Below, one piece after another: positions 4,323-36,467 of a DNA stretch of 46,037 bases (within the stretch, counting starts at the first letter, position 1; every line of letters begins with the position of its first letter). The DNA lies in NCBI GenBank assembly GCA_903902705.1, contig CAIUVX010000014.1, positions 1 to 46,037 on the forward strand, written 5' to 3'. The translations under genes were made by a program, and so were the position numbers. The stretch is from an uncultured Methylococcales bacterium (GTDB taxonomy: Bacteria > Pseudomonadota > Gammaproteobacteria > Methylococcales > Methylomonadaceae). The notes below the pieces were generated by a model that did not search any database, was not told the origin of the DNA, and saw only the letters and a program-made list of their open reading frames with translations.

Positions 4323-5054
4323 ATGAGCCAGAACACGCTATCACGGGAACTGGCTCTGCGTATCGGGCTGGCAGCACGCGCTTTGCCCGATACGACCATC
4401 CAACGCTTAATGACCGTGTTAACGGCAGAGTTGGGGCTGCCCATTACCGAAGAAAAATTGGCTACGCTTAATTTAAAAACTCTGAAAACTGCCCACGAGG
4501 GTGAATTTTCGGAAATCGAAGAACCATTATTGAAAAAAGCCGTCCACGCGCTAAAACATCCAGCGTCTGAAGACATGACTGCCAGTCCTTTAAGGACTGG
4601 CAGTCATCCGATTACACCTTATCACGAAGGCGAAATGCCCAGTTCGATACGCATCGCCTGCGCCAGTGATGACACGGTTAAAGTCGATGGTCATTTTGGT
4701 TCATGCAAGCAATTCATGGTGTATCAAGTATCAGCCAGCGAAGCACGATTGATTGATGTCCGTGATACCCAACAAGCCAGTGCGCTTGAAGAAGACAAAA
4801 ATCGTTTTAGGTCTGAATTGATACGCGATTGCCAAGTATTGTACTTGGTTTCAGTGGGTGGTCCTGCTGCGGCAAAAATCGTTAAGACAGGTATACACCC
4901 GATTAAATTACCCGAAGTGACTGCTATTAGCGAGGTAATATCTGAGTTACAGCAGGTATTAGCAAACAAGCCACCGCCTTGGTTAGCCAAAGTAATGGGG
5001 ATTAATCCAGAAGCGCGTTTTGTTGCGCATGAGGCAGAAGAGGTGGTCGAATGA
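4323..5054 (+). CDS. nafY: NafY/NifY-type dinitrogenase cofactor-binding protein with in-frame palindrome
   Basis: A 243-aa protein with two parts, as in Azotobacter NafY: a helical N-terminal domain (about residues 1-80, binding apo-dinitrogenase in the family) and a NifX-like core (about 107-232) that binds FeMo-co. The core contains VDGHFGSCKQFMVYQV; His124 there corresponds to the family's cofactor-binding histidine. Residues 85-95 (MTASPLRTGSH) are encoded exactly by a 33-bp dispersed palindrome inserted in the linker between the domains. The gene overlaps the next one by ATGA at 5051-5054. Whether it is orthologous to nifY or nafY cannot be settled here; the family is secure. Confidence 0.88.
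   Translation: MSQNTLSRELALRIGLAARALPDTTIQRLMTVLTAELGLPITEEKLATLNLKTLKTAHEGEFSEIEEPLLKKAVHALKHPASEDMTASPLRTGSHPITPYHEGEMPSSIRIACASDDTVKVDGHFGSCKQFMVYQVSASEARLIDVRDTQQASALEEDKNRFRSELIRDCQVLYLVSVGGPAAAKIVKTGIHPIKLPEVTAISEVISELQQVLANKPPPWLAKVMGINPEARFVAHEAEEVVE
4575..4607. repeat. Dispersed palindrome, copy 1 (inside nafY)
   Basis: Two exact 16-nt arms beginning ATGACTGCCAGTCCTT flank a single central T. Compared with the 34-bp intergenic copy at 7324 it lacks one central base, giving 33 bp, i.e. exactly 11 codons with no stop. It sits in phase at codons 85-95 of nafY. Confidence 0.95.
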
Positions 5055-7323: not shown

Positions 7324-7357
7324 ATGACTGCCAGTCCTTTAAAGGACTGGCAGTCAT
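7324..7357. repeat. Dispersed palindrome, copy 2 (intergenic, perfect 34 bp)
   Basis: A perfect palindrome with half-site ATGACTGCCAGTCCTTT and its exact complement, with no spacer. It is 17 nt after the stop of the Nif11-like gene and 26 nt before the next ATG. It is the reference copy for the family seen also at 4575, 16025 and 35048. Confidence 0.95.
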
Positions 7358-15921: not shown

Positions 15922-16342
15922 CGACTTTACTCCTTGGTTGTTATAGTTATTATTTTACCGCGTGATAGTGTACTGAAATACTAATATTAATAAGAGGGTA
16001 GTAAACCTAATTATAGCGATATTAATGACTGCTAGTCCTTTAAAGGACTAGCAGTCATACTCAAAAGTAAAAACAACAAATTTAATTTACTATCCATCTG
16101 GCTTATAATACAACAAACTTCAGCTTGACCAACTAACTATGACAAAGACAGTGTCAGCTGTGGTGTTGCGCTTATTAAATTCAATGTGCGTGATCCCCTC
16201 GGATCACTTCAAATTGCTCAGTCTTTTTTTAGTTCGCCCTTTTGTCAGCCTGTTTCCTTGCGTTAGTACGCCCATAATCGCGATGCGCTTTTTGAAATAA
16301 AGCCCCCCATTCATCACTAACGCTGTTGGAGTTAATATTAAA
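15922..16342. other. 421-bp intergenic region between divergent regulator and MFS genes
   Basis: It contains palindrome copy 3 (16025-16058) and a small hairpin GTGATCC/GGATCAC at 16190-16207. TATAAT at 16104-16109 with TTAATT 16 nt upstream could be a weak promoter. A 53-codon ATG frame at 16139-16300 lacks recognisable features. No RNA gene was seen. Confidence 0.5.
16025..16058. repeat. Dispersed palindrome, copy 3 (intergenic, paired change)
   Basis: Half-site ATGACTGCTAGTCCTTT and its exact complement, 34 bp. Relative to copy 2 it differs at two positions, C to T at position 9 and G to A at position 26, which are partners in the stem, so the palindrome stays perfect. Confidence 0.95.
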
Positions 16343-26429: not shown

Positions 26430-26741
26430 TTATTTTGGGACATGGTGTGTACTCTGTTGTGAGGTTAGAGGACACCGCTTTAAGCTACTAAACTTTGGGC
26501 GGTGAACGTTAGACGGGTTAGTAGACACGGCAACAGAACCGTGCGAGCCGAAGCTCCCCAAATAACGCCCACCATAGAATTTACTGCATTTGATAACGCA
26601 ATCTATGATTAGACGCGCTTGAATTGGCATCTGTTGATTTTTACGGCTACTAACCCGTACCGCCCAATGAGTGGACAGCGTGATTAGGTTATCCAGCATC
26701 GGGTAAATAGTCAAACAATTGTTTAACGTGTCCACAATCAT
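26430..26741 (-). CDS. Hypothetical protein coupled to HTH gene (103 aa)
   Basis: I choose ATG 26741, which overlaps the upstream stop as ATGA, with a G-rich SD-like tract before it. The sequence MIVDTLNNCLTIYPMLDNLITL is followed by a Gly/Ser-rich stretch (FYGGRYLGSFGSHGSVAVST). No domain is recognised. The overlap supports translation, but the composition is unusual and it could be a non-coding frame. The 134 bp between it and the primase gene contains no gene I can support. Confidence 0.4.
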   Translation of the reverse strand: MIVDTLNNCLTIYPMLDNLITLSTHWAVRVSSRKNQQMPIQARLIIDCVIKCSKFYGGRYLGSFGSHGSVAVSTNPSNVHRPKFSSLKRCPLTSQQSTHHVPK

Positions 26742-34761: not shown

Positions 34762-34817
34762 GGAGTCCAAAACAAGTTTTGGACGTTTTGTGTCGTCCAA
34801 GTCATGCCTTGGACTCC
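34762..34817 (+). repeat. 56-bp dispersed repeat, copy B
   Basis: Ends GGAGTCCAA and TTGGACTCC are inverted repeats, and an internal AACAAGTTTT is palindromic. It matches the reverse complement of 9425-9480 with three differences. It ends 3 nt before the last base of the mod stop codon. Confidence 0.88.
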
Positions 34818-34820
34818 GAA

Positions 34821-36467
34821 TTAAAAACGAGTTATATCACGCGGTATTTTTTTGAAGATGATACCGTGTTTGGTTAGGAATTCTTTGTTAAATAGGCATT
34901 TGTCCGCATAGATAATCGCGGTGGCGGGTTTATTTGCTCCGAATTTTAATGTGCCGAGAAAATCTAAATCAAGACAAGTGACGGCATCGGCTTCGTAGTA
35001 GAAAATCCACGCGGTTTCAGGGCTTAAGCCTAGTAAATACGGTGTGTATGACTGCCAGTCCTTTGAAGGACTGGCAGTCATTCCATCTGGTTTATTTTGC
35101 GGTGTGCGGTATTCAGTCGCTATGCCTTCGGAGTAACTGACATAATCGCGGATAACGTCAACGCCTACGGCTTCGTTCAGTGTGTCATCGGGGTTAAAAA
35201 TCGCCGCGCCAACGGTGTAATAATCGAAACTGCCGCCTAATCCTGCGGTTTGTTTTGTGCCTACACCATAACCAGACATCACGCGGCGCACTCGTTCAGC
35301 GGTGATGGTGTCGGCGTAGTCTTCCATTTCAATCAGGATGAAGCGGCGATTGCCTTGGTCTTGGGCGTTGAGTTTAAGGACTGCGTGGGCGGTTGTTCCT
35401 GAGCCTGCGAAACTGTCCAAGATAATGGCATTCTTATCCGTCATTGATAGTAGGTAGGCTATTAACTCGGATGGCTTTGGAAAAGAGAATGCCTTACCAT
35501 CTCCTAGCAGTAATTTGATTTCATTTGTGCCATGCTGTGTATAAAGCCCATCAATAATGGAGTATGGTTTTGCTCCTCTAATTTTCCCGTCAGTGGATTT
35601 TAGATATTGTTTATATGAAACAGTCCATTTTTCGTTTCTTTTTATAAAAACCAATTCATTATTTTTTTGTGCTTCTTCAGACCTATCACGCGACCATTGC
35701 CATTGTTTTTCGGGCATAATTTCTTCGTCATTATGGTAAAGCGGATAACGTAAGTTTGGTCTTTCATCCATGCTGGTAGTGGCTAATGGTTGAAGTCGAA
35801 ATGCCCCCCGTTCTTGAAACTTCTCATCAGTATATTTGTAATACTTCAATGATTTATCGTCAGGTGGTAATTCAATAGGTTTTAGTTCACTTATGTTTTT
35901 TGAATAACAGATAATGTATTCGTGAAGATTAACTATATGTTTTGATTTTGAGCCGCCACCATAACTTTTTTTCCAGACAAATGTTTCCAGTTTATTTGAT
36001 GCGCCAAATAGCTCTTCCAAAATAAGCTCTAAAAAACTATGTTCATTTTCATCAATGCTTATTAATAATATGCCATCCCTAGCCAACAACCGATGCAACA
36101 ATTTCAAACGTGGATACATCATGCACAACCATTTATCATGCCGTGATAAATCCTCGCCTTCTTTGCCCACCACCTGCCCTAACCATTTCTTAATTTTCGG
36201 ATCATTCACTGCATCGTTATACACCCAGCTTTCATTGCCTGTGTTATACGGTGGGTCTATGTAGATACAGTTAATTTTGCCCTCAAATTCAGGCAATAAA
36301 CTTTTCAAGGCGGCAAGATTATCGCCGTGAATAATGCGGTTATCGGTGCTGTTAGCAGGTGTACCGTCGGGTGCGTCAAAATGACTTTCGCATTGCAAAA
36401 CCCGAAACGGTACGTCCAAGTGATGATTGACTACTTTGTCTTTTCCGACCCAAGTCAGTGTTGGCAT
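34821..36467 (-). CDS. mod: Type III DNA adenine methyltransferase, Mod subunit
   Basis: A 548-aa beta-class N6-adenine methyltransferase. The catalytic motif DPPYNTG (71-77) comes before the SAM-binding motif DSFAGSGTT (351-359), with the target-recognition region between (about 160-330). It starts MPTLTWVGKDKVVNHH, as in type III and related Mod proteins. Residues 463-474 (MTASPSKDWQSY) are encoded by the dispersed palindrome at 35048-35081, in the C-terminal part after the methylase core. It is the first gene of the mod-res-RR-HK series. The specificity cannot be predicted. Confidence 0.92.
   Translation of the reverse strand: MPTLTWVGKDKVVNHHLDVPFRVLQCESHFDAPDGTPANSTDNRIIHGDNLAALKSLLPEFEGKINCIYIDPPYNTGNESWVYNDAVNDPKIKKWLGQVVGKEGEDLSRHDKWLCMMYPRLKLLHRLLARDGILLISIDENEHSFLELILEELFGASNKLETFVWKKSYGGGSKSKHIVNLHEYIICYSKNISELKPIELPPDDKSLKYYKYTDEKFQERGAFRLQPLATTSMDERPNLRYPLYHNDEEIMPEKQWQWSRDRSEEAQKNNELVFIKRNEKWTVSYKQYLKSTDGKIRGAKPYSIIDGLYTQHGTNEIKLLLGDGKAFSFPKPSELIAYLLSMTDKNAIILDSFAGSGTTAHAVLKLNAQDQGNRRFILIEMEDYADTITAERVRRVMSGYGVGTKQTAGLGGSFDYYTVGAAIFNPDDTLNEAVGVDVIRDYVSYSEGIATEYRTPQNKPDGMTASPSKDWQSYTPYLLGLSPETAWIFYYEADAVTCLDLDFLGTLKFGANKPATAIIYADKCLFNKEFLTKHGIIFKKIPRDITRF
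35048..35081. repeat. Dispersed palindrome, copy 4 (inside mod)
   Basis: Arms of 16 nt (ATGACTGCCAGTCCTT and complement) match the family, with a central TG instead of TA, so it is one base off perfect. On the mod strand it enters in phase at codon 463 and encodes the same MTASP start as the nafY copy. Confidence 0.95.

Follow-up and report, generated by a model that had tools for sequence, protein, structure and literature searches.

A short palindrome of 34 bp is dispersed in scores of copies through the genomes of Crenothrix-like Methylococcales, and we consider it likely, with a probability of roughly 70%, that it works like the Rickettsia palindromic elements (RPEs) and the intragenic REPs, occurring both within a MITE and as a bare repeat. 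The stretch analysed here (the window) comprises 46,037 nucleotides of an uncultured Methylococcales bacterium. The original prediction had placed four copies at positions 4575-4607, 7324-7357, 16025-16058 and 35048-35081, and a half-site search of the window returned exactly these coordinates. With up to three mismatches allowed, the half-site ATGACTGCCAGTCCTTT matches the window eight times, twice per palindrome, against a chance mean of 0.14, and none of 100 dinucleotide shuffles reached eight. These shuffle controls, together with the genome-wide copy count, rule out a chance set of four. The relevant features of the window are as follows.

4575..4607, + strand: bare 33-bp palindrome, in frame in the nafY-like gene; no MITE flank
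4323..5054, + strand: NafY/NifX-like host gene (Pfam DIMCO_N and Nitro_FeMo-Co)
7324..7357, unstranded: bare 34-bp palindrome, intergenic, about 2.3 kb downstream of the nafY-like gene; no MITE flank
about 15997..16095, unstranded: degenerate MITE with central palindrome, its ends set by eye against the consensus GGTAGTGGGTTAAAYCTGTT
16025..16058, unstranded: 34-bp palindrome, centre of this MITE, with MITE flanks on both sides
35048..35081, − strand: bare 34-bp palindrome, in frame in the mod-like gene; no MITE flank
34821..36467, − strand: mod-like DNA methylase host gene (Pfam N6_N4_Mtase)

Two copies (7324 and 16025) are intergenic and two (4575 and 35048) lie in genes, as predicted; the name NafY/NifX-like is a fair one for the first host because of its two Pfam domains. 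The coding copies are also free of stops and equal in phase, reading MTASPLRTGSH at 4575 and MTASPSKDWQS at 35048. The prediction of a four-copy family held in that the copies are real, but the window contains only a share of a far larger family. Similarly, the copy at 16025 is a real palindrome but not a lone one, being the centre of a degenerate MITE.

The palindrome and its genomic distribution

The family consensus is the 34-bp sequence ATGACTGCCAGTCCTTTAAAGGACTGGCAGTCAT. Each arm contains the small palindrome GACTG-C-CAGTC, so the 34-mer can be described as a pair of 11-bp units with CTTTAAAG between them and an AT at both ends; shorter forms with one unit were also found. The consensus RNA is predicted to fold into a single hairpin with a 15-bp stem and a 4-nt loop (−27 kcal/mol, z −8.95). 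In a set of 141 copies, in which bare and MITE-borne copies are mixed, the two outermost pairs are complementary in 136 and 134 cases, and complementarity outside them falls below expectation. The palindrome core is as a rule 29-31 bases long. Among 66 bare copies (from all loci examined, distinct by context and with orthologues counted separately), the outermost pair is AT..AT in 43, AC..GT in seven, AG..CT in five, GT..AC in one and unpaired in ten. Such two-sided changes at the last pair speak for the symmetry being upheld, whether through selection or through hairpin-templated repair. A further element, bounded by GCATAGGTATCTACACA..TGTGTAGATACCTATGC, has inserted repeatedly at the palindrome's TTTAAA centre or close to it (L111:1215-1405, L153:11055, L146:1620 and L187), both of its ends being seen only in L111.

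The window belongs to a genome of 3.97 Mb in 210 contigs (G000), in which the half-site with up to three mismatches was found 119 times forward and 129 times in reverse (three and six times for a reversed-pattern control) and the 30-base core, again with up to three mismatches, at 75 places. The core is present in 13 of 237 genomes of the family; the control is found in none of the 237. Within the genus of G000 the counts are 75 in G000, 79 in G006, 39 in G003, 31 in G002, 19 in G005, 12 in G007 and one each in G001 and G004. In genus g26 they are 44 in G032 and three in G062, and elsewhere in the family one each in G113 and G210 and two in G218. The core is therefore common in seven genomes, six of the Crenothrix-like genus and one other, and rare or absent in the remaining 230. 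In a sample of 369 genomes from the class, G000 alone gave a match, the core being absent from the 368 others. The exact 34-mer occurs in 46 stretches among named genomes, all recorded as Methylococcales bacterium, uncultured Methylomonas sp. or Crenothrix sp. D3, and we call the host Crenothrix-like because the records include those names. Neither the 34-mer nor the 30-mer has an exact match in IMG/VR, and the 34-mer has no match in PLSDB, which leaves a phage- or plasmid-borne repeat unsupported.

Two other features of the window may be mentioned. A second dispersed palindrome family (GGAGTCCAAAAC / CCAAGTCATGCCTTGGACTCC) adjoins the mod gene at about 34780-34825; it also occurs at L126:3450, L131:10360 and L147:10915, in places within the same MITE ends. 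C4 antisense RNA is a phage-type immunity RNA, and positions 26495-26579 (− strand) match its Rfam model (RF01695) at 53.3 bits, the gathering score being 45.

MITE-borne and bare copies

In the stretches of G000 examined we found 80 pairs of half-palindromes, three of which (with spans of 35, 38 and 42 bases) were left out as chance pairs. The remaining 77 copies have MITE sequence on both sides in 36 cases, on one side in 18 and on neither side (bare) in 23, proportions that apply to good copies because the stretches were picked around listed copies. For 3000 places chosen at random in these stretches the corresponding numbers were 3, 28 and 2969.

The MITE is about 102 bp long and ends in GGTAGTGGGTTAAAYCTGTT and its complement. 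Of 62 distinct MITEs at the loci examined, a 34-bp palindrome could be recognised in 39. Among the other 23 are elements with a single unit, with a degenerate copy or with an altogether different palindrome. When one mismatch at most is allowed, 16 of the 62 are flanked by target duplications of 8 bp (shuffled mean 0.51, maximum 3), nine of them with the palindrome and seven without; two of the 16 lie in a segment duplicated within L157. Duplications of 9 and 10 bp were not found, and those of 7 bp were found three times. For one palindrome-bearing MITE (L139:3443-3544, duplication GAAGTGTG) an empty site was recognised by eye in L082. An 833-bp element with MITE-like ends (L149:6470-7302) contains part of an IS1 transposase (PF03400, E = 1.2e-25). 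Given the 8-bp duplications, the empty site and an IS1 transposase relative with similar ends, the container is best read as an IS1-family MITE; it has the terminal inverted repeats (TIRs), the 8-bp target duplication and the related transposase in the same genome that mark such elements. In the four copies checked, stops interrupt five or six of the six reading frames.

The likeness to an IS1-family MITE is limited to the container, and the bare copies differ in having neither TIRs (by their classification) nor a target duplication. With fixed anchors, the 66 bare copies, selected by a flank rule slightly stricter than that used for the 77, show no duplication of 2-11 bp beyond the palindrome's own AT. 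They stop sharply at 34 bp. Some of the bare intergenic copies could nevertheless be old MITEs with decayed arms, and no bare insertion at the aligned sites proved to be very recent and clean at once. That a small element had dispersed, as originally proposed, is upheld, but part of the dispersal is hitch-hiking in an IS1-family MITE, which the prediction had missed.

In-frame inserts and their occupied and empty sites

Ten of the 77 copies in G000 lie within genes, and all ten are bare and in frame. Thus 10 of 23 bare copies are in genes, compared with 0 of 54 copies with a MITE flank (Fisher p = 1e-6). The hosts in G000 are an RND pump (ACR_tran), an ATP-grasp protein, an ATPase/TPR-like protein, SMC, nafY, mod, three TPS/ESPR proteins (L168, L139 and L127) and an epimerase-like gene, which was named by eye and aligned with its orthologues. 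Other genomes add LeuRS (in its editing domain), a CydD-like ABC transporter, a PbpC-like transglycosylase/transpeptidase, a YfiH-like Cu-oxidase_4 protein and an nSTAND protein. Six short ORFs (81 to 158 codons) that run over copies with one MITE side have no Pfam match. One further copy (L133), close to the beginning of the hisA frame, sits in the hisH-hisA gap and was left out of the in-gene count. In another genome, a copy with MITE flanks (L084:4087) overlaps the first part of an ORF with a DDE_3 domain further in, and may lie upstream of the start codon.

Across all genomes we counted 15 gene insertions in 13 gene families, taking gene and position to define separate events. The prediction that this minimal, mobile or REP-like sequence can serve as a protein insert is thereby largely borne out. 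The insert is read as MTASPLKDWQS in 12 events, as DCQSFKGLAV in two and in the third frame in one (L126, where the central stop is lost); with events as grouped by us, the first frame accounts for 12 of the 14 in the two naturally open frames (p = 0.013). It adds about eleven amino acids in stretches that vary among orthologues, and it falls in a gap or a poorly aligned stretch relative to the solved structures of YfiH, LeuRS and the RND pump ZneA. Palindromes of other families are likewise in frame in long ORFs (L256:1738, L285:353 and 1264, L286:1729, L135:3533 and L173:6760), and one CydD-like gene in G003 carries two different in-frame palindromes.

Comparison with relatives reveals both occupied and empty sites. 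LeuS has the insert in G006 and lacks it in G000, G002, G007, G032 and G010; PbpC has it in G003 and G007 and lacks it in G002, G006 and G000. The RND pump carries it in G000, G007 and G003 and not in G006, G002 or G010, and in G032, of another genus, the same loop holds an insert in another frame. In the ATP-grasp gene the insert is present in G000, G006, G007 and G002, and the family's palindrome is absent from G003 and G010. The SMC hinge region has it in G000, G003 and G007, in decayed form in G006 and G002, not at all in G010 and elsewhere in G032. For nafY it is found in G000 and not in G002, G003 or G007, and for mod in G000 and, at the same place, G003, with a relative in G008 lacking it. 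Between genes, the hisH-hisA gap is occupied in G000 and G002 and empty in G006, G007 and G003, and the family's palindrome is absent at the window's 7324 site in G007 and G002. Sites L123:6489, L131:14873, L140:5452 and L117:494 are occupied in a relative too, and L173:9679 and L127:4297 also in G006.

The changes at these sites are not confined to the palindrome. The net gain over an insert-free relative is 12 bases in nafY (against G002 and G003), 18 in the RND pump, 24 in YfiH, 27 in LeuS, 36 in L126 and 39 in PbpC, and is not simply 34 since the surrounding loop is altered too. Compared with the empty allele, the flanks at hisH-hisA show a few extra bases, and the relatives' gap at the 7324 site has a quite different sequence. 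Because flanks, gap sequence or gene loops differ in this way, "insertion" here means insertion plus local change.

Neither a restriction to four copies nor a lack of empty sites, either of which would have spoken against spread, was found: there are scores of copies, and insert-free sites exist at hisH-hisA, in LeuS, PbpC and the RND pump, at 7324 (G007 and G002) and for the MITE with its 8-bp duplication. The predicted "active or recent spread" is supported by the copy number and the patchy sites as far as spread itself is concerned, but not as to its being active, and some of the gene insertions are not recent, since they are common to several species.

In several cases a relative carries a different palindrome at the same place. 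The ATP-grasp loop of G003 has GTGGGAGCGACTTTAGTCGCG in place of the family's palindrome, and the CydD loop of G003 and G007 has a GATGGGC..GCCCATC palindrome, both in frame. The CydD gene of G006, which bears the insert, is not longer than the genes of its relatives, which carry the other palindrome. Three intergenic sites (L089/L130, L088/L137 and L058/L169) also have another palindrome in a relative, and at the 7324 site of G007 (L318) a different one, GTAGAGACGCGATTTATCGCGTCT, was recognised by eye. These observations suggest that a given protein loop or intergenic site is occupied by palindromes of more than one family. The shared loops and gene ends may reflect tolerance of any hairpin or a shared insertion process. 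Other palindrome families (GTAGGAGCGGC and GATGYGC) lie beside Y1 transposase (RAYT-like) genes of G000 (L062, L063, L064 and L067).

Relation to known repeats and alternative explanations

One account describes RPEs as palindromic repeats of about 150 bp that are in frame in many unrelated protein genes (PMC10969869), and another lists the small intragenic RPE-4 and RPE-6 as CGTC repeats (PMC3733652). The 34-bp family has the same defining property, a palindrome read in frame in several unrelated protein genes. It differs from RPEs, as far as these descriptions extend, in being 34 bp long, lacking a CGTC tag and also forming the core of a MITE, and its hosts, unlike those of RPEs, are free-living gammaproteobacterial methanotrophs.

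REPs are described, in the second of these papers, as high-copy palindromes of 20-40 bp, mostly intergenic, with some in frame in genes including tRNA synthetase genes; CGTC REPs are defined by a CGTC tag, a 3-bp tail, an 8-9 bp stem and a 4-5 bp loop (Table 1) and have no known transposase, and some REPs lie within longer palindromic sequences (PMC3733652). On this description the 34-bp family resembles GTAG and CGTC REPs as a short, high-copy, mostly intergenic palindrome that is in some cases in frame in genes, but it has no unpaired tag, its stem is paired to the ends and no RAYT was found beside its copies. There is no GTAG at the edge of the consensus and no unpaired GTAG at one end of the hairpin, 56 of the 66 bare copies being paired at the last two bases. 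The consensus also lacks CGTC, and its 15-bp stem with a 4-nt loop departs from the CGTC definition. Eight matches to Y1_Tnp were found in G000, at seven places, and none of the eight loci holds a copy of the palindrome with up to two mismatches, whether flanking a RAYT gene or otherwise, although copies farther from these genes are possible because the loci are short (1.9-3.3 kb). Mobilisation by a RAYT as a GTAG REP was therefore rejected as the sole origin, there being no tag and no RAYT nearby. The main text of PMC3733652 contains no word beginning with "Methylo" or "Crenothrix", and we found no description of the family in the literature searched, most subscription journals being outside its coverage.

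A further comparison can be drawn by description only. The small hairpin of the 34-bp family, its embedding in a minitransposon and its compensatory changes set it beside the SDRs of Nostoc, another host. Nostoc SDRs are mobile hairpins of 21-27 nt that are often embedded in minitransposons and show compensatory changes; we know of no in-frame protein inserts among them.

Bare copies might instead be immobile remnants of MITEs that have lost their arms, the palindrome being kept because it folds. Copies with one recognisable MITE side (18 of 77), single-unit MITEs and deleted forms are what such decay would leave, and one of six frames is open in two of the four MITE copies checked, so that an occasional MITE insertion in a gene could be free of stops. 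However, none of the ten in-gene copies of G000 has a recognisable MITE flank, complementarity ends sharply at 34 bp, and both arms would have had to be lost, in frame, in 13 gene families; we regard this explanation as unlikely, if deserving of attention. Selection in place of a functional hairpin (an mRNA stabiliser, an attenuator or a protein-binding site), with spread being secondary, would fit the very stable fold, the two-sided changes at the outermost pair and the copies between operon genes such as hisH-hisA. The patchy presence at orthologous sites, the unrelated palindromes that relatives hold there and the copies within coding loops of proteins that have nothing in common all speak against a conserved function tied to the site, and we regard this account as rather improbable.

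The layout of two 13-bp arms around CTTTAAAG recalls the 13-8-13 arrangement of loxP and FRT, and the palindrome could in principle be a recombination site of a tyrosine recombinase that has spread with that system. Only the layout points this way: the spacer is symmetric, the core varies in length, and such sites alone do not get to scores of loci, so we consider this very improbable. Several contigs of the draft genome end near a copy, as might be expected of an assembly or contamination artefact, but the chance of such an artefact is close to nil given that the family appears in records of several independent projects, including Crenothrix sp. D3, and occupies orthologous positions within genes of several genomes.

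Transposition of the MITE, with its 8-bp duplications, moves the palindrome around the genome. On the reading that we prefer, the bare hairpin would be inserted by a route that leaves the target unduplicated, most likely in single-stranded form, in the way proposed for REPs. A REP-like activity acting in trans might insert the bare hairpins, or they might rarely be trimmed MITEs. MITE insertions in genes would mostly be purged because of the stops in five or six of the six frames. Insertions that break the frame or the protein would be lost, and a bare insert would survive where the frame is open and an additional hydrophilic loop is tolerated. Later decay might remove one 19-bp unit or the whole hairpin by deletion between repeats.

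We also entertain, with low confidence, a broader possibility: the bare hairpin may itself be a mobile unit, among the smallest known, inserted by a hairpin-specific activity that makes no target-site duplication and is common to several unrelated families. Loops and intergenic sites would then be filled, emptied and refilled in a general exchange of palindromes that adds short loops to housekeeping proteins. It has long been asked how palindromic repeats as small as RPEs, REPs and SDRs enter genes. Here a single sequence can be traced in two forms, one within a MITE that has 8-bp duplications and one bare and lacking them, among closely related genomes with both occupied and empty sites, and its in-frame inserts are seen in proteins such as LeuRS and in the hinge region of SMC.
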